From positions 1 through 64,000 of the forward strand of contig OMIV01000059.1 of assembly GCA_900299185.1 (NCBI GenBank): DNA of 64,000 nucleotides, in the 5' to 3' direction. The notes below the pieces were generated by a model. That model was given only the letters and a program-made list of their open reading frames with translations. It did not search any database and had not been told where the DNA came from. How positions within the stretch are numbered: the stretch's first letter is position 1; every line of letters starts with the position of its first letter. Below are positions 2,839-12,223 of this stretch, one piece after another. The DNA comes from Planctomycetaceae bacterium (GTDB lineage: Bacteria > Planctomycetota > Planctomycetia > Planctomycetales > Planctomycetaceae). The position numbers were made by a program, and so were the translations under genes.

Positions 2839-3609
2839 ATGAAGTACATGCTGTTGGTCTACAGTCCCGAAGCGGCTTGGACCCCAGACGAATGGACGGC
2901 TTGCACCGTCGAGTCCACAGCGGTCTGCCACGACATCCAAGCCAAGGGTCAGTTCATTTCCGCATCGCCGCTGCATCCCATCGCGACGGCGGCCAGTGTG
3001 AAAGTTCGCAACGGCAAGGCACTCGTGACGACTGGTCCATTTGCCGAGACCACCGAACAACTCGGCAGCTTCTTCTTGATCGACGTTCCGAATCTCGATG
3101 AAGCCATTGCTATCGCAAGCCGTTTGCCAGCGGCCAAGAAAGGCACCGTCGAAGTCCGACCAATCTTCACTCTCGATGGTCTGCCGCCAGAGATCTTCGC
3201 TGCCAAGCAACCCAGCGCGGAGTGGAACGGTTCGCAATACATGCTGCTGTGTTACGACGACGAGCAAGCGTGGAACGACGCCGGTCCAGAAGCATTGCGA
3301 GCTGCGATGCAGGAAGCCGTGCAGCTCTGTCATCAGCTCGACGCACGAGGTCAGTTCATCAGTGCGTCGCCGTTGCATCCCGTGTCGATGGCGACGAGCG
3401 TTCGAATTCGAGACGGCAAACGCTTAGTGACCGACGGTCCCTTCGCAGAGACTCGCGAGTTCCTCGGCGGCTACTACTTGCTGCTCGCGAAAGATCTCAA
3501 CGAAGCCATCTCCATCGCTGCTCAACACTCCGGAGCACGCGTCGGCACAGTCGAAGTTCGGCGTGTGTTTGAATTGCCAAACATGGTGAATGCCACAAGA
3601 CCGGAGTAG
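2839..3609 (+). CDS. Tandem YCII/DGPF double-domain protein
   Basis: A 256-residue protein made of two YCII-related (DGPF) domains in a row. Domain 1 (about 1-115) starts MKYMLLVYSPEAAW and has KALVTTGPFAETTEQLGSFF and GTVEVRPIF. Domain 2 (about 130-250) starts QYMLLCYDDEQAW and has KRLVTDGPFAETREFLGGYY and GTVEVRRVF. Most relatives have one such domain of about 120 residues, so this is an internal duplication or fusion. Domain 1 has TGPF in place of the canonical DGPF. The fold is ferredoxin-like with a conserved pocket whose ligand is unknown. DGPF genes are commonly linked to ECF sigma factors of the ECF42 group; none is visible here. It ends 8 bases before the next gene. Confidence 0.85.
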   Translation: MKYMLLVYSPEAAWTPDEWTACTVESTAVCHDIQAKGQFISASPLHPIATAASVKVRNGKALVTTGPFAETTEQLGSFFLIDVPNLDEAIAIASRLPAAKKGTVEVRPIFTLDGLPPEIFAAKQPSAEWNGSQYMLLCYDDEQAWNDAGPEALRAAMQEAVQLCHQLDARGQFISASPLHPVSMATSVRIRDGKRLVTDGPFAETREFLGGYYLLLAKDLNEAISIAAQHSGARVGTVEVRRVFELPNMVNATRPE

Positions 3610-3617
3610 GAAGTGAC

Positions 3618-4811
3618 ATGTTGGGAAACCGCTTGGCCGTCGTAATGGCGTTAATAACTCTGATTGCTGGAGGCACCGCTGCAGCACAGCAACTCGAACC
3701 GACTAAGTCACAACCAAAGTTGGTTCTCGCGCACTACATGCCGTGGTTTGAAGCTAAACCAGTAAGTCCCCATTGGGGCTGGCATTGGACGATGAATGCC
3801 TACGATCCAGAAAAGACCAGCAATGGCAAACGCTCCATTGCATCGCACCTCTACCCGATGATTGGCCCCTATGACTCGGGCGATGACAGAGTGATCGAGT
3901 ATCACATCCTGCTCATGAAGGTCGCAGGTGTCGACGGCGTGATCGTGGATTGGTACGGATTACAGAGCCACAACGATTACGCCCTTCTACACCGCAATAC
4001 GACTCGTTTGGTTGAGCACCTTGATCGCATCGGGCTGAAGTTCGCGATTTGTTATGAGGACCAAACGGTTACGGAGTTAATCAAAGCCGGGCGGTTGCGC
4101 AACGATCAACGAGTAGACCATGTCGTTCGCGAGATTGAATGGTTGCGCGAGAACTGGTTTTCGAAACCAAGTTATGTCCGCGTTGATGGCGCCCCATTGC
4201 TTCTTTCCTTCGGGCAATCTGGCCTGACTGACGCAGAATGGTCCGCCTGTCTGTCCAAGAGCAAATCAAGGATCTCCTACTTCAGCCTACATCATCGTCG
4301 TTCATCCGCTGTAGGAGCCTTTGATTGGCCATTACCCAAGGAAGGCTTCTCGTCGATTCAGCGTTACTACAAAGACGCAGCCAACTGGCAACACGCGATT
4401 CCAGTGGCCTACCCAAGATTTGTTGACGTCTATGTGGATGCCAAAGTTGGAGAGAGTTACGGTCGAGTCGAAGATCAATCCGGAACATTTTTCAGCCGGA
4501 CATTAGAGCTGGCTCTCAAGTCGTCGGCGCAAGTAGTTCAAATTGCGACCTGGAATGATTGGGGAGAAGGCACCGTCATCGAGCCCAGCGTCGAGTACGG
4601 CTATCGCGATCTCGAAACCATCCAAAAGCTCAAGCGACAGCTTGTAGATCCTCGATTCTCGTTCCAATCGGCAGATCTTCGAACGCCGGGGATGTTGCTC
4701 AAAGCTCGGAATCAAGGTGGTGATGCGCTGCGGCTCGACCACGTTCAAAAACTGATTTCTAACGGCCAGGTTGAGGCCGCTAGAGCGGAACTCAAGGCGT
4801 TTGCCGACTGA
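3618..4811 (+). CDS. Secreted GH99/GH71-like glycoside hydrolase-type protein
   Basis: A 397-residue protein. Residues 1-23 look like a Sec signal peptide (hydrophobic core VVMALITLIAGG, cleavage near AAA-QQ). The mature part opens with LVLAHYMPWFEAKP and carries VAGVDGVIVDWYG, VDGAPLLLSFG and, near residue 310, TWNDWGEGTVIEPS-EYG. This is the pattern of the GH71/GH99-like (endo-alpha-mannosidase-like) TIM-barrel domain common in planctomycetes. The substrate cannot be told from sequence, and many relatives are of unproven activity. A C-terminal helical stretch of about 60 residues follows the barrel. It lies 8 bases after the YCII gene and 68 bases before the next, so it may be cotranscribed, although a polysaccharide enzyme is an unexpected member of a DGPF cluster. 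Confidence 0.75.
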   Translation: MLGNRLAVVMALITLIAGGTAAAQQLEPTKSQPKLVLAHYMPWFEAKPVSPHWGWHWTMNAYDPEKTSNGKRSIASHLYPMIGPYDSGDDRVIEYHILLMKVAGVDGVIVDWYGLQSHNDYALLHRNTTRLVEHLDRIGLKFAICYEDQTVTELIKAGRLRNDQRVDHVVREIEWLRENWFSKPSYVRVDGAPLLLSFGQSGLTDAEWSACLSKSKSRISYFSLHHRRSSAVGAFDWPLPKEGFSSIQRYYKDAANWQHAIPVAYPRFVDVYVDAKVGESYGRVEDQSGTFFSRTLELALKSSAQVVQIATWNDWGEGTVIEPSVEYGYRDLETIQKLKRQLVDPRFSFQSADLRTPGMLLKARNQGGDALRLDHVQKLISNGQVEAARAELKAFAD

Positions 4812-6447: not shown

Positions 6448-8559
6448 ATGAATCGTTCTATTGGTCTGCGCGAGTTCGTTGGCATCGTGGTGTTGGCGGT
6501 GTTGCTGACCGGAGCTTTTGCGGGCGAACTGTGGTCAGGCGGATTGGTCGGCGGCGACGTTTACTCGTACTTCCTGCCCCAAAAACAACTGCTGAGTGAG
6601 AGCCTGGCTGCGGGCACGTTGCCGCTGTGGCATCCCCGCACGAGCTTCGGTTACCCGCTTGTTGCTGAGAGCCAGACCGGGGTGTTCTATCCGCCGAACT
6701 GGTTGCTCTATGGTGCGTTCGACGCTCACCGTGCTTATCACGTGTCGCAATTGTTGCACTACGTTGCAGGTGTCATCGGCATGTGGTGGCTCGCACGCGA
6801 ATGCGGTCTCTCGTTTCGAGCAGCGGTACTCGCGGCAGTGATCTTTGTGTTTGGTTGGTTTCCGCCGCGACTGTGCCTGGAGTGGGCCATCATCGGTGGT
6901 TGCTATCTGCCCTACTCGTTGTTGTGCGTTGAGCGCTTCGTGAAGAGCGGTCGCACTTCGAACCTACTGCTGTTGACGATGTTGTTAGGTTTGCAGATGA
7001 CGGCCGGGCATTTTCATCTGGCCTTCATCACTCAATTGATGACGGCGACTTACGCGACGTTGCGACTGTTCGTCCCAAACGCCAACACCGCGAGCAACGC
7101 TGTTCCGACAACTAACGCGCAGCCATCGCCGACCCGTCGGCTGGTGTTGGTCGCCGTGGCGATGCTTGCTGCGTTCACGCTTGCGGCGGTGCAACTCGGA
7201 CCGTCGTGGGAATTGAAGAAGATCAGCCAACGACAGACGACGACCAGTCGCGAGTTTGATCCCGGTTACGGCCACATCCCGCCCATGTATTTGTCGCAAG
7301 TCGTCGCGTCTTGGTGGTGGTGGTACTCCGAAGACATCGATCGAGATCGAGCATTAAGCGAACTCAAAGTCGGCGCGATCTCGTCAGGTACGAATCAAGT
7401 CGAAGCGCATCTCTACTTTGGACTGCTGCCGCTGGGCTTTGTTCTTGTGGCGTTGCTGCGGCCAGATCGTCGCCGATCGTTGCTCGCAGATGGCGGCTGG
7501 ATCTGGCTGCTGTTGGCGATCGCGTCGGTCATCTACGCCACCGGTTGGTTGCTGCCCATCGCTCGTCATCTGCCCGGCTTCAGCTTCTTTCGAGGGCTCG
7601 GCCGCTTCGGGCTGATCACGACACTTTGCATGAGCATGTTGGCTGGTTGCGCCGGTGATCTCTTCCTCAATCGCGCTTCGAAACGGGACTTCGTCGCCTT
7701 CATCGTTGTAATACTCGCGACAGTCGCAGACTTGCATGTGGTGTCGCGGCAAGTGCGATATTCGATCCCGGTCAGCACTCCGCCTTATGCACTCTTGAAG
7801 GATAGCGCGGTCAGAGCCGAATTCAGCAAGTCGAGCGACTTAGTGCGACTTGATGCGCCCGGCGCCAACCTCTGCAACCTGTTGGGCGTCTCGGCGGTGC
7901 CGGAGTACCTCGGACTCGGGCCGATCGAATACTACGAGATTCCAACAGCAGCGCGACTGCTCGATGCCGCTCATCCCGATGCCGCCAACGTGCCGCTAGC
8001 GATTCGACTTCCGCGTTACTTGGAGTGGGCCGAACAGTCCGGCATCACGCACGTTTTACTGTTTGAACCAGTCATAACCGAAGGCTACGAAGATCGCCTG
8101 AAGTTGGTGTTTCGTGGCGTGGATGTCTTCCTCAATCGAGCTTGGGGGCGAGCCCCGCATGAGCCCGTCTTTCTTTATGCGTTGCCCAAGTCACTCGGTC
8201 GAGCGAGCCTGACGGCGAACTCATCGGGCAAAGTCCGCATCGTCGACTATGAGGCCAATCGAGTGAGCCTGGATGTGGAACTCGCTAATGCAGGCACCGT
8301 GGTCCTGCGAGATCTCGATTACCCCGGCTGGCACGTTTCGATTGATGGCCAACCTGCAACGAACAAGCGAGTCGAACCGTACTTTCGAGGCGTCGAAGTG
8401 ACGGCAGGCCAACATCGCATCGAATGGACGTTCCGGCCAACAGGCTTTGCAATTACAGTCGGCCTCAGCCTCGCAACTCTGCTCGGACTAATCGTGCTCG
8501 CGATCGGCGAAGGCAGGAAACGATGTCAATCTTCGCCACACTCGATATCGAGTACTTGA
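6448..8559 (+). CDS. YfhO-family multi-spanning membrane protein
   Basis: About 703 residues with roughly 12 predicted membrane segments and a C-terminal extracytoplasmic domain. The N-terminal loop GGDVYSYFLPQKQLLSESLA and LPLWHPRTSFGYPLVAESQ are typical of YfhO/GT-C-like proteins, where an acidic residue in the first loop is usually catalytic. The C-terminal DLDYPGWHVSIDGQ, YFRGVEVTAGQHRIEWTFRP and a last membrane span match the YfhO C-terminus. The family is thought to transfer or modify sugars at the outer membrane face; the substrate here is unknown. The ATG at 6448 was preferred to a TTG four codons upstream; neither has a clear ribosome-binding site. The last 34 bases overlap the convergent mazF-type gene. 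Confidence 0.8.
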   Translation: MNRSIGLREFVGIVVLAVLLTGAFAGELWSGGLVGGDVYSYFLPQKQLLSESLAAGTLPLWHPRTSFGYPLVAESQTGVFYPPNWLLYGAFDAHRAYHVSQLLHYVAGVIGMWWLARECGLSFRAAVLAAVIFVFGWFPPRLCLEWAIIGGCYLPYSLLCVERFVKSGRTSNLLLLTMLLGLQMTAGHFHLAFITQLMTATYATLRLFVPNANTASNAVPTTNAQPSPTRRLVLVAVAMLAAFTLAAVQLGPSWELKKISQRQTTTSREFDPGYGHIPPMYLSQVVASWWWWYSEDIDRDRALSELKVGAISSGTNQVEAHLYFGLLPLGFVLVALLRPDRRRSLLADGGWIWLLLAIASVIYATGWLLPIARHLPGFSFFRGLGRFGLITTLCMSMLAGCAGDLFLNRASKRDFVAFIVVILATVADLHVVSRQVRYSIPVSTPPYALLKDSAVRAEFSKSSDLVRLDAPGANLCNLLGVSAVPEYLGLGPIEYYEIPTAARLLDAAHPDAANVPLAIRLPRYLEWAEQSGITHVLLFEPVITEGYEDRLKLVFRGVDVFLNRAWGRAPHEPVFLYALPKSLGRASLTANSSGKVRIVDYEANRVSLDVELANAGTVVLRDLDYPGWHVSIDGQPATNKRVEPYFRGVEVTAGQHRIEWTFRPTGFAITVGLSLATLLGLIVLAIGEGRKRCQSSPHSISST

Positions 8560-8870
8560 GTAAGTCGACTAACGAGTTGACTCCAATCGCGATCACTCAA
8601 GCGGCCGACTTTATGTAACACTCGAACGTCAGCAACGGTCGCAATCAGCATGCGGGCTGTTGATGGCTTTAGCAGGTTTGCTTGTTGCCAATCGACTAGC
8701 TCAACATCGAGCGAATTTCGCGATGAGTGCGACGTAATCGCAGCGATGATCAGATCTCCGCGTCGATTGAATTCGCGTCGTGACAGGACAACCGCCGGTC
8801 TGACCGATTCTCGGAGCTGCTCGCGATATGGAAACGGCACAAACACGACGTCGCCAGAATTAAAGTCCAT
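8526..8870 (-). CDS. PemK/MazF-type toxin (probable mRNA endoribonuclease)
   Basis: A 114-residue protein starting MDFNSGDVVFVPFPYREQ, then SVRPAVVLSRREF, DLIIAAITSH and DVELVDWQQANLLKPSTAR, ending with IATVADVRVLHKVGRLSDRD. This is the PemK/MazF fold (GDVV-x-VPFP, RPAVVLS, AAITS). These toxins cut RNA at short sites. The ATG at 8870 was chosen over one at 8921 because the conserved GD-x-V start follows at once and it places the start within the antitoxin stop, as in most TA pairs. The 3' end runs 34 bases into the end of the YfhO gene on the opposite strand. Confidence 0.85.
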   Translation of the reverse strand: MDFNSGDVVFVPFPYREQLRESVRPAVVLSRREFNRRGDLIIAAITSHSSRNSLDVELVDWQQANLLKPSTARMLIATVADVRVLHKVGRLSDRDWSQLVSRLTQVLDIECGED

Positions 8871-9084
8871 AGTGCGATCTCCAGTCGTCGTAGATGGCGT
8901 CGACGGGATTGTCCCAAGCATCTTCCAGACGACTCATCGCAAGTTCGCGAAATTCAGCATCCTCGACATCGCCTGGATTTGGTTTCACACGAACGACGAT
9001 CTCGACTTCGGTCCCATCCGAAATGTCTATCGGCAGATCAAGTTCAACACTCTGTCCGCGATATCGACCGGTTCCTCGAAACAT
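8860..9084 (-). CDS. Antitoxin partner of the MazF-type toxin
   Basis: A 74-residue protein, MFRGTGRYRGQSVELDLPID, followed by ISDGTEVEIVVRV. This short beta-rich N-terminus resembles AbrB-like or related small antitoxins. The acidic C-terminal tail with LEDAWDNPVDAIYDDW probably wraps the toxin. It overlaps the toxin start by 11 bases, the usual arrangement for translational coupling. The family was not identified by name; the assignment rests on size, position and tail. Confidence 0.75.
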   Translation of the reverse strand: MFRGTGRYRGQSVELDLPIDISDGTEVEIVVRVKPNPGDVEDAEFRELAMSRLEDAWDNPVDAIYDDWRSHYGL

Positions 9085-9210
9085 TCTCGTGTCCTCAGTG
9101 AAAGAGTGGGAAAGCCGTCGCAGATTAGTTGGACGTGATGTCGTCGCCGAGACGTCTTTGGCTTCGATCGCAGTTCAACTTCCGACGTTGTACCGAGCTG
9201 CGAATAAGCC

Positions 9211-9260
9211 CGAGTCGCGGAGCGACTCGGCTACGTAGCTCAGGCGCTCTGCGACTGAGA
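9211..9260. repeat. Dispersed double palindrome, family B (copy 1)
   Basis: CGAGTCGCGGAGCGACTCG forms a near-perfect stem, followed by GCTACGTAGCT and a second stem CTCAGGCGCTCTGCGACTGAG. The same plan (stem, TACGTA, stem) recurs at 44779-44836. It sits between the antitoxin start and the end of the polyferredoxin gene. Confidence 0.65.
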
Positions 9261-9302
9261 ATCACCGGCAATGTTCGTCGGCATTTCACGAACGTATCGC
9301 GC

Positions 9303-11102
9303 TCACTTCTGTAAGAAATCTGGCAGGTAACTTTCCTCGTTCTGATTGGTGGGTGATGTCTGATTCGCAGCTCGTGCGGCCTGTTCGGCTTGGCGAAGTT
9401 CGACATACGAGCCGCTCATCAGGCGGTCTTCCTGATTGCCGCCCGCGCGAATGACGATGGCCGACGAGTCTAGCAAGCCCTTTGCGGCAACGTTGATTCC
9501 GTAGCAGCGAGTCTGACACAGACCGCATCCCACACACTTATCCGGCAGCACAACTGGCGCGAGGAATCCCGAGTCCTCGATCGGCTGCCCACTGGAATCG
9601 ACTTCTGTGCCAACACGAGTGAACTCGATGGCGTGGTAACCAGCGTGGTGACATTCATCGACGCAGAGCTGACACGCTTCTCGCCCGGCATACGGCAAGC
9701 ACGTTTGCAGGTTGAGTTCCGCTAAGCCGATCCGACAAACCTGCTTCTCGAACAGTGGCAACGCTCGGATCGCTCCGGTCGGACAGACCTGACCGCAAGC
9801 GTTGCAGCTCGCTTCACATCCCGCCCAATCGGCGACCACGTGCGGAGTCCACAAGCCATCCAAGCCTTGCTGTAAACCCAACGAATGCAGCACATCGTTG
9901 GGACACGCTTTGAAACACTCGCCACAGCGAATGCACATCTGCAAGAACTGAGCTTCGGGCACACTGCCGGGCGGTCGTATCGGACGCCAAGCCTGCGGAT
10001 CAGCCAAGTTCCCGCCGGAAACTTTGGCGACTCCACTTAACCCCAGCCCGCCCATCACTCCTGAAGCGATGCCAACTCCGGCGGCCAGAAAACCTCGACG
10101 ACCAAGGGACGTCTCGTGTGTGGGTGGTTCATTCGGCAGCTTGAGATCGACCAACTCCCAACGGTCCACAAACTTGATGGCCTGTGTCGGACAAACTCCA
10201 CCACACGTCTGACACAGCGTGCAATCAGTGGTGCGTGTGAGGAAGTCGGGCTTGATGGCGTCGAACGGGCAGATCTCCACGCACTTGTTGCAGTGGATGC
10301 ACGAGCTTTCGACTTTGCGTTCGGTGACACGAAACAAGTTGCCCAACGAGAACACCGCACCGCTCGGACAGACATAGCGGCACCAAAAGCGTGGCTTAAG
10401 AAAGCCCAGTCCCAACACCGTGGCAAACAACACCAACGACAGCGCATGACCGGCATGCAGTGGCGGAACGAGATGCCAACCTCGCAACAGTCCGGTCTGC
10501 CACGGCGAGATCGCGAACAACATACCTCTAGTCAGAACAGGAATGGCTGCCACGAAACCAGAGACGAGCACTCCGCAGCACGCAGCGACCAACGTCGTGA
10601 GTAACAAGTAGTACTTGATGTGAACCCACCAGCCATCGTCGCTGACTCGAAAGCGTTTGACGCGTGAGCCGATGGACCAATCAAAGAGATCAATCAAGGT
10701 TCCAAGCGGACACAGATACCCGCAAAAACCTCGGGGGATCACGACGCAGATCAGCAGGATCGCTCCGGCACTGACCAGTGACCACACCCAAGCCCGCGAC
10801 GCGATCACTGTCGATAGACTGACGAGCGGATCGATGATCAGAAACGATTCCGCAGCAAGCTGCTCTTTGCGAGCGAGTTCATCGGCGTAGTGCGACGGCC
10901 ATCCCTCGACGTGCTCGACAGGCCGAGCGGTGTATGGCCAACACACATAGAAGAACAAAACAAGGAACGTCAGAAAGCAGGCCGCTTGCACGACACGTCG
11001 CACCGGAGCTGACAGCCAGCTCGGTCCGAACCGACTCAAGATCCGCCGCACTGCTCCGAACTTGCTCTTCTTGAGGAACGGCAGAAAGTGATGAAGTCGC
11101 AT
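9303..11102 (-). CDS. NapH-NapG-like fused membrane polyferredoxin
   Basis: A 599-residue protein. The N-terminal half is NapH/MauN-like: membrane segments near 39-55, 103-123, 163-187 and 217-235, with CGYLCPLG (127-134) and CRYVCPSG (241-248), then a two-cluster ferredoxin, CIHCNKCVEICP (268-279) and CTLCQTCGGVCP (294-305). After a linker, RRGFLAAGVGIASGVMGG (335-352) looks like an internal Tat-type or membrane segment. It leads into a NapG-like half with CIRCGECFKACP (390), CNACGQVCP (433-441), CLP..GREACQLC..EC (468-484) and CVGCGLCQTRC (523-533). NapH and NapG are separate proteins in nitrate reduction systems and pass quinol electrons outward. The fusion and the FMN-binding neighbour 59 bases upstream suggest an electron conduit; no terminal reductase is nearby. 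Confidence 0.85.
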   Translation of the reverse strand: MRLHHFLPFLKKSKFGAVRRILSRFGPSWLSAPVRRVVQAACFLTFLVLFFYVCWPYTARPVEHVEGWPSHYADELARKEQLAAESFLIIDPLVSLSTVIASRAWVWSLVSAGAILLICVVIPRGFCGYLCPLGTLIDLFDWSIGSRVKRFRVSDDGWWVHIKYYLLLTTLVAACCGVLVSGFVAAIPVLTRGMLFAISPWQTGLLRGWHLVPPLHAGHALSLVLFATVLGLGFLKPRFWCRYVCPSGAVFSLGNLFRVTERKVESSCIHCNKCVEICPFDAIKPDFLTRTTDCTLCQTCGGVCPTQAIKFVDRWELVDLKLPNEPPTHETSLGRRGFLAAGVGIASGVMGGLGLSGVAKVSGGNLADPQAWRPIRPPGSVPEAQFLQMCIRCGECFKACPNDVLHSLGLQQGLDGLWTPHVVADWAGCEASCNACGQVCPTGAIRALPLFEKQVCRIGLAELNLQTCLPYAGREACQLCVDECHHAGYHAIEFTRVGTEVDSSGQPIEDSGFLAPVVLPDKCVGCGLCQTRCYGINVAAKGLLDSSAIVIRAGGNQEDRLMSGSYVELRQAEQAARAANQTSPTNQNEESYLPDFLQK

Positions 11103-11161
11103 GACGGGACCTTAGTCGGCAAGTGATGTTCTCCCTGTGACCCAGAGGCAATTCGTTGCCA

Positions 11162-12223
11162 TCACTTCTTCGCGGTCAACGCTTTGGCTGTCGCGTTCAC
11201 GATGGCCTCTGAAGTCAGTGTCGCATTGCTGGTGGTGTCGATGCCCTTCACCGTTTGCTTCGCGATGATCTTGGCAGTGGTGTCGTTGATCGCCGAGTAG
11301 AACTGCTTCTCGCGATGTTGAGTGACACTAACCGTCTCAATGCGTTGCTTCTTCACGGTAACAGCGACTTCAACCGGCCCTTCGTAACCTTGGCTTGCCG
11401 CCACGTACTTGCCATCCGCAACGGACTTGAGATCGAACAACTCGAACGACTTAATGGCCGCGACGTTGGCTTCGGCTCGATTGCGGTTCTTCAGCAATCG
11501 TCCCGGTGGATTAGAGGCCGGCACCTTGATCGCCAGCACTTTCTGATAGTGACCGATGGCGTCTTCATATCGACCGACCTGACGGCAGATATCGCCTGCC
11601 AACAGCGAGGCATAACCTTGCGGATCATCAGAGGTCTCTTCGAGAGCGATCTTGAGTGCCCGATCGGTCTCGCCCAAATCGGCCAACAGCTTGGCTTGCG
11701 AAAGACTCTGCGACACCTTGTTCAACAGCTTGAAGGCTTCCGTGCGATAGCCCAGTCGCGCATAGCACTCGGCCAAGATCACCGCCGAATGCGAATACTC
11801 TTCAGGGTTCTTTTCGACGCCAGCCGCTCGATACCAAAACGCTGCGCGGGCGTAGTCTGCCAGTAAGTCGTGATACATGTGGCAGAGCGACAACATGGCT
11901 CGCTCGCGTTTCTCGGGATCGTCTTTGTGCAACGTCAGCAAGTGGTGCATCAACCGAGTGCCTTCGCGCCACCGACTTGGATTGGGATTCACAACATCCC
12001 ACACGAACTGCCCGACGTTCTTTTGATTGTCCCAACCTGGAGGCGGCTTCATGGGCCAATCCAAGTCGAGCGTCTTGGGATAGTTCAACGGCGTCGTCTT
12101 GAACCACTCCGGCGGCGTCTTGCCAACCTTCTCGATGAGTGCGTCTAACTCGGCCCGAGTTCCCTCGGCACGAACCGGCACAGACAGCAAACAGAGCATC
12201 GCGACCAGCAACCACCTTCTCAT
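11162..12223 (-). CDS. Secreted TPR protein with a C-terminal FMN-binding domain
   Basis: A 353-residue protein. Residues 1-19 are a Sec signal peptide. Residues about 85-235 contain TPR-like helical repeats (AMLSLCHMYHDLLADYARAA, YARLGYRTEAFKLL, GDICRQVGRYEDAIGHYQKV). Residues about 268-350 match an FMN_bind domain: DGKYVAASQGYEGPVEVAVT, VSVTQHREKQ, and GIDTTSNATLTSEAIVNA, where the T-S-N-A-T segment corresponds to the S/T-G-A-T flavin attachment site of RnfG, NqrC and NosR. It is cotranscribed with the polyferredoxin downstream. FMN on the periplasmic side plus a polyferredoxin is the NosR/RnfG logic, split into two genes with an added TPR region for partner binding. The electron acceptor is unknown. 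Confidence 0.8.
   Translation of the reverse strand: MRRWLLVAMLCLLSVPVRAEGTRAELDALIEKVGKTPPEWFKTTPLNYPKTLDLDWPMKPPPGWDNQKNVGQFVWDVVNPNPSRWREGTRLMHHLLTLHKDDPEKRERAMLSLCHMYHDLLADYARAAFWYRAAGVEKNPEEYSHSAVILAECYARLGYRTEAFKLLNKVSQSLSQAKLLADLGETDRALKIALEETSDDPQGYASLLAGDICRQVGRYEDAIGHYQKVLAIKVPASNPPGRLLKNRNRAEANVAAIKSFELFDLKSVADGKYVAASQGYEGPVEVAVTVKKQRIETVSVTQHREKQFYSAINDTTAKIIAKQTVKGIDTTSNATLTSEAIVNATAKALTAKK

Follow-up and report, generated by a model that had tools for sequence, protein, structure and literature searches.

A TPR flavoprotein and a NapH-NapG fusion as a probable flavin-ended electron conduit of planctomycetes

The two genes and their predicted cofactor sites

The DNA considered here, called the window, comprises 64,000 nt of contig OMIV01000059.1 (assembly GCA_900299185.1) from a Planctomycetaceae bacterium whose genome we code as G000; its guanine-plus-cytosine (GC) content is 57%. 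Its minus strand carries a gene for a flavoprotein composed of tetratricopeptide repeats (TPR) and an FMN_bind domain, followed by a gene in which NapH-like and NapG-like halves are fused (NapHG). An earlier note on this DNA had read the two as an electron conduit of NapH/NapG type ending in flavin mononucleotide (FMN), a reading that is well supported by the results below. The features are as follows (ORF, open reading frame; AF2, AlphaFold2).

11162..12223, (-): gene for the TPR and FMN_bind flavoprotein, 353 aa (ORF; PF04205, TPR_7; 13-sequence alignment; AF2 model)
12170..12223, (-): Sec-type signal peptide, approximately the first 18 residues (by eye; many homologues have hydrophobic N-termini)
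11438..12016, (-): helical TPR-type solenoid, residues ~70-262 (Pfam TPR; AF2 helices; PDB TPR matches)
11177..11389, (-): FMN_bind domain, residues 279-349 (PF04205; fold match to 8p2b)
11219..11239, (-): predicted flavinylation motif DTTSNAT, residues 329-335, FMN on Thr335 (sequence; homologues; 8p2b alignment)
11103..11161, (-): operon-like intergenic gap of 59 bases, both genes on the same strand (sequence)
9303..11102, (-): gene for NapHG, a transmembrane polyferredoxin of 599 aa (ORF; NapG and NapH model matches; 12-sequence alignment)
10113..11102, (-): NapH half, with four hydrophobic helices, two CX3CP motifs (Cys 127/131 and 241/245) and two cytoplasmic-side ferredoxin motifs (Cys 268-304)
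10020..10100, (-): internal twin-arginine RRGFL (335-339) and hydrophobic segment (fifth helix), residues 335-361 (hydropathy)
9303..10019, (-): NapG half, four ferredoxin motifs (Cys 390-440 and 468-533), predicted periplasmic

The FMN_bind assignment, on which the earlier note had made its reading depend, holds in a profile search (PF04205, 43.8 bits, E 4.2e-11, cut-off 22). TPR_7 scores 30.9 bits, above its cut-off, and the T-S-N-A-T attachment-like motif lies within residues 329-335, so that the domain composition given in that note is confirmed. The 353-aa protein is probably secreted. Its AF2 model is of good quality (pLDDT, predicted local distance difference test, 83), and the FMN domain of the model superposes on domain 1 of CbFMN4 (8p2b; Z 13.5, root-mean-square deviation 1.6, 81 residues aligned) and on domain 2 of SaFMN3 (8p2a; Z 12.4, deviation 1.7, 83 aligned), both of which carry FMN covalently on a Thr (PMC10339131). 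In an alignment with 8p2b, Thr335 of DTTSNAT falls on the Thr of its SGAT. The published motif for flavinylation by ApbE is D-x-x-[S/T]-G-A-[S/T] (PMC12052999), of which the Asp, Ser, Ala and Thr are retained here. At the position of the motif Gly, homologues vary between Gly, Asn, Arg, Ser and Ala, and Ala-Thr is retained in all those that have the segment in frame.

NapHG matches the NapH model over residues 87-311 (63.2 bits against an equivalog cut-off of 234) and the NapG model over residues 331-548 (97.8 bits against 269), and Fer4_5 (PF12801) scores 43.2 bits with a cut-off of 22. The fusion with an internal RRGFL, as described in the earlier note, is thus present. Twenty-eight Cys are invariant in 26/26 homologues: 24 belong to six ferredoxin-type motifs and four to the two CX3CP motifs, with 12 before the twin-arginine and 16 after it. 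The internal RRx[FL] occurs in 25/26 sequences. The estimate of about six iron-sulfur clusters agrees with the six ferredoxin motifs; the number would be six, or seven if the CX3CP Cys bind one too. As iron for only two clusters has been reported in NosR (PMC5928378), a CX3CP-bound cluster is uncertain. Hydropathy maxima are found at residues 37-55, 104-122, 171-189 and 217-235 and, following RR335-336, at 337-355; another one, at 82-100, was counted, by judgement, as a loop.

The 26-pair set leaves aside the contig-end loci L012 and L014, the short L018, L020 (flavoprotein ORF split) and L013 (NapHG ORF enters another frame), the last of which was kept in alignment A2; one in-frame stop in the NapHG of L054 was set to X. 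Gene calling was rough at high-GC loci, where genes missed by a second caller were placed by tblastn. In seven loci (L015, L016, L017, L019, L020, L021 and L049) NapHG is longer by ~100-120 residues, which lie between helices 1 and 2, and an N-terminal extension is present in several of the flavoproteins paired with these longer forms. Both additions are missing from the closest relatives of the window.

Distribution of the pair and its flavin transferase

Genome-scale searches covered Planctomycetota (294 phylum genomes), and one scan of genome_contigs was made with a close-relative query. The latter, a protein search, gave 14 named loci, from planctomycete records and from two whose title says just 'bacterium'. 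In 12/12 of the named loci that could be assessed, the gene for the flavoprotein and that for NapHG are neighbours on one strand; L012 and L014 lie at contig ends. As the pair is conserved across planctomycete genomes, chance pairing is excluded, and the two genes form a real unit. The window ORFs are 67-82% identical to those of loci L008-L011, which have the same Asn in the motif and an adjacent ApbE gene.

Within the phylum sample, the profiles detected the flavoprotein in 15 genomes and NapHG in 20. A sixteenth flavoprotein genome (G056, locus L090) has a diverged TPR-FMN_bind gene beside NapHG, with ApbE also adjacent. Among these 16 genomes, the two genes abut or almost abut in 12 and lie within ~3 kb of each other in three (G110, G141 and G145). 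The pair was found in 0/16 other genomes of the window's own family in the sample; it is rare and patchy in the phylum sample. GC and third-position GC of the pair fall inside the range of the other genes of the window and give no compositional sign of recent foreign origin. Genome G171 has two tandem, diverged flavoprotein-NapHG pairs with one ApbE (L050, 6949-13896), and its diverged pair type occurs alone in G056 (L090). In G141, genes of GH62 type and Vgb-lyase type stand between the flavoprotein and NapHG genes (L056, 1664-8672); genes that cluster with these two occupy the same stretch in the related locus L058 (G110).

The search in other genomes proposed by the earlier note also revealed a conserved neighbour that it had overlooked, the flavin transferase ApbE, which lies outside the window. 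ApbE stands directly upstream of the flavoprotein gene in 9/12 assessable named loci (L015 and L021, at contig ends, were not counted), assigned by Pfam for three and by clustering for the remainder. In the window, this place is taken by an 821-aa ORF that looks FtsK/SpoIIIE-like by eye. G000 has four ApbE genes, and the candidate partner is that on contig C223 (3087-4091, minus strand), which is 50-65% identical to eight operon ApbEs, whereas its other three ApbEs are 25-35% identical to them; the ninth operon ApbE (L013) was not part of this comparison. Homologues of the C223 ApbE at E<=1e-60 occur in 8/294 genomes, all among the 16 flavoprotein genomes. In six of these eight the gene is in or near the cluster; G000 and G130 are the two that have it on a different contig. 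Ignoring kinship, the chance of such co-occurrence is 1e-11, or 2e-10 without G000. This co-occurrence is the strongest evidence that the flavoprotein would be flavinylated, and because close homologues of the C223 ApbE occur only in pair-carrying genomes, covalent FMN at Thr335 is very likely.

Relation to described systems

The pair shares parts with several known systems. The flavinylated NapH-like systems of Meheust et al. (PMC8238504) likewise combine a Fer4_5 membrane protein, an FMN_bind protein and ApbE, and 539 such clusters have FMN_bind as a separate gene. Their definition, a PF12801 protein clustered with an FMN_bind or ApbE gene, applies to the pair, with ApbE adjacent in the relatives. 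However, in the present pair NapG and NapH are one fused chain, the flavoprotein carries TPRs and there is no linked terminal enzyme; the main text of that paper contains no occurrence of 'planctomycet', 'TPR' or 'tetratricopeptide'.

The second close likeness is to the dual Sec-Tat (twin-arginine translocation) polyferredoxin Q1NSB0 of strain MLMS-1, with which NapHG shares five helices and a twin-arginine before the fifth (PMC5449189). Proteins of this type have three clusters inside and four outside, and Tat-dependent export of the C-terminal half was shown for the MLMS-1 protein (PMC5449189). NapHG has the same helix order, an even number of helices and then the twin-arginine with one last helix. 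Its 12 + 16 Cys would give the same three cytoplasmic and four extracytoplasmic sites, counting CX3CP as a site. In contrast, FMN does not occur in the text of PMC5449189, whereas NapHG has a TPR flavoprotein partner with its own ApbE.

Likeness to NapG and NapH of the periplasmic nitrate reductase lies in the matches of the two halves to both models; the differences are the single chain, scores below the equivalog level, the lack of a linked NapA and the additional flavin terminus. NosR and PceC/RdhC also combine FMN_bind with a NapH-type membrane module, and in PceC the flavin is extracytoplasmic (PMC5928378). Here, however, FMN_bind forms a separate chain, there is a NapG half in addition, and NosZ and PceA-type enzymes are missing from the pair genomes. 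The term 'split NosR-like' of the earlier note can therefore be kept as an analogy of electron route and function but not as a statement of membership: the NosR model gives 28.1 bits against a cut-off of 1000, FMN_bind and the membrane module are in separate genes, the partner is a NapH-NapG fusion and there is no NosZ. RnfG/NqrC share the FMN_bind fold (RnfG model E 4.8e-5), but 23.5 bits against a subfamily cut-off of 102, and NapHG as the only linked partner, argue against membership there as well.

We thus regard the pair as a combination of the published NapH-NapG polyferredoxin and flavinylated NapH-like kinds, with a TPR flavoprotein and a dedicated ApbE, which would make it a rare, self-contained variant of such conduits. 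Neither this combination of TPR-FMN_bind and NapH-NapG with a private ApbE nor the contrast with DUF362 described next was found in the literature searched, which did not extend to subscription papers and supplements. Three distant planctomycete NapH-NapG fusions, ~30% identical, are directly preceded by a DUF362 gene instead of one for a TPR flavoprotein: L092 (G223, NapHG at ~8139-9707, plus strand), L093 (G033, ~3149-4720, minus strand) and L094 (G287, ~7936-9675, minus strand). In L092 and L094 a DUF6599 gene lies upstream of DUF362. DUF362 is perhaps an alternative exit module on the NapH-NapG wire, and dual Sec-Tat polyferredoxins would then be connected with two candidate exit modules, TPR-FMN_bind and DUF362.

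Electron route, acceptor and competing explanations

From the parts, their linkage, the link to ApbE and the conservation of Cys and motif, all directly observed, we consider it probable that the pair and the C223 ApbE form one extracytoplasmic electron outlet. Quinol would be oxidised at the membrane part of NapH. The electrons would travel by way of the NapH clusters into the periplasm, where the NapG half has four more, and finally reach the FMN that ApbE has attached to the secreted TPR flavoprotein at Thr335. The first four helices would be inserted by Sec and the NapG half then probably exported by Tat, by analogy with the other NapH-NapG polyferredoxin. Docking of the flavoprotein to NapG, a client or both is the probable role of the TPR solenoid, and the acceptor would be non-dedicated or as yet unrecognised. 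A bolder version, which seems to us possible but doubtful, is that the TPR flavoprotein acts as a mobile or docking hub from which the electrons of quinol reach several clients or a diffusible acceptor, with no dedicated reductase. The private ApbE would then have co-evolved with relaxed motifs (SNAT, SRAT, SSAT) that a standard ApbE handles poorly, and DUF362 would be an alternative exit module.

Several observations weigh against the proposed outlet. The motif departs from the canonical one in its Gly, replaced by Asn, and in another protein a Gly to Ala change approximately halves flavinylation (PMC12052999). The ApbE co-occurrence is inflated by kinship, as five of the eight genomes belong to one family, although the eight span four families. 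The distance matrices of the two proteins are correlated (r 0.79; 0/5000 permutations as high), but this test depends in part on the species tree, and shared ancestry raises the correlation. In genome G017 the flavoprotein is present but the profile search gave no NapHG match. Structure prediction, suggested in the earlier note, succeeded for the flavoprotein and failed for NapHG, the AF2 model of which was discarded (pLDDT 37.5); the NapHG topology therefore rests on hydropathy and homology. Finally, the pair loci show no linked acceptor, which leaves the direction of electron flow open to an oxidase-coupled reverse route.

The acceptor was sought in the neighbourhood and in the genomes. The neighbour census comprised 154 neighbours within 5 kb in 32 loci, of which 91 were scanned and the 25 commonest of 116 families listed; no reductase recurs among the 91 and no family has more than four members. 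Within this census the pair is not a routine companion of a known reductase, the outcome that the earlier note had named as fatal to its reading. The note's statement that no nitrate, nitrite or N2O reductase gene is near holds for the ORFs read around the pair, some window ORFs having been profile-scanned, but NapA is present elsewhere in the genome (contig C353). NosR/NosZ is rejected as a general partner: the NosZ propeller is found in 13/294 genomes and neither in G000 nor in any of the 15 flavoprotein-profile-positive genomes, where 0.66 would be expected, so that this is absence rather than avoidance. Reductive dehalogenases of PceA type gave two weak matches in the 294 genomes, none in a pair genome, and NrfA, clear in 2/16 genomes (G290 and G121) and weaker in three more, does not track the pair. 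Molybdopterin enzymes have matches in 14/16 genomes, and of 14 places fetched, 10 could be assigned: NapA in one (G000), formate dehydrogenase alpha subunits in four and an FdhF/YdeP-type enzyme in one score over a cut-off, and four over none.

The NapA of G000 (TIGR01706 over cut-off; C353, 5191-7692) gives rise to an alternative, in which the conduit is its quinol donor, as NapGH is elsewhere. NapGH is a known alternative donor to NapA (PMC5928378), no NapGH was seen beside the G000 NapA, and the NapC/NirT family has no match anywhere in the genome. The genes on either side of NapA encode a multihaem protein and a protein of 213 aa that contains several CxxCH motifs (L112; C353, 2544-8891), an unusual arrangement for a Nap donor. 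However, the two are on different contigs, and of the 24/294 genomes with NapA at E<=1e-200 only G000 has the pair, that is, 1/15 flavoprotein-profile-positive genomes against 1.2 expected. Among the 14 named-locus genomes, NapA is found in three at the same level and in five at a laxer one, and in G152, of the same family as G000, NapA is present but both the pair and a NapC match are missing. For G000 itself, a role as NapA donor may apply, though we rate it as unlikely. The reverse direction, in which the flavoprotein gathers electrons from periplasmic sugar or alcohol oxidation and passes them to quinone, would accord with flavinylated NapH-like systems on record as linked to alcohol oxidase (PMC8238504). 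Beside or between the pair genes, some loci do carry genes of gluconolactonase-like, Vgb-lyase, GH62, GH97 or GH123 type. The commonest such family, SGL, however, accounts for only 4/91 scanned neighbours, and there is no dehydrogenase among the 25 commonest of the 116 neighbour families. Planctomycetes are rich in SGL-like and similar sugar-related genes, and NapGH homologues run outward. We consider inward flow quite improbable. The Asn in the motif (SNAT for SGAT) and the unlinked ApbE of G000 might also be taken as signs of a degenerate relic, a flavoprotein that has lost its FMN and whose ApbE has moved off, but both ORFs are intact and close to those of L008-L011 with the same Asn and an adjacent ApbE, the 28 Cys and the acceptor Thr are all retained, and a matching ApbE is still in the genome; such decay is very improbable.

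According to Meheust et al. (PMC8238504), most NapH-like systems still lack an assigned reaction. For the outlet proposed here, the pair offers a compact three-gene case in which the private ApbE tracks its partners even when unlinked, so that the partner question is reduced to co-purification. The change of Gly to Asn together with a matched ApbE makes the specificity of the flavin transferase testable.

G000 also encodes a second FMN_bind protein (L023; contig C190, 7043-8800) with two FMN_bind matches fused to Fer4_5, in the manner of NosR/PceC, and no redox partner was found among its four scanned neighbours. The pair is therefore not the only FMN_bind/NapH-type system of G000. In the window itself, a small ORF at 8526-8921 (minus strand) has a MazF/PemK-type look by eye.

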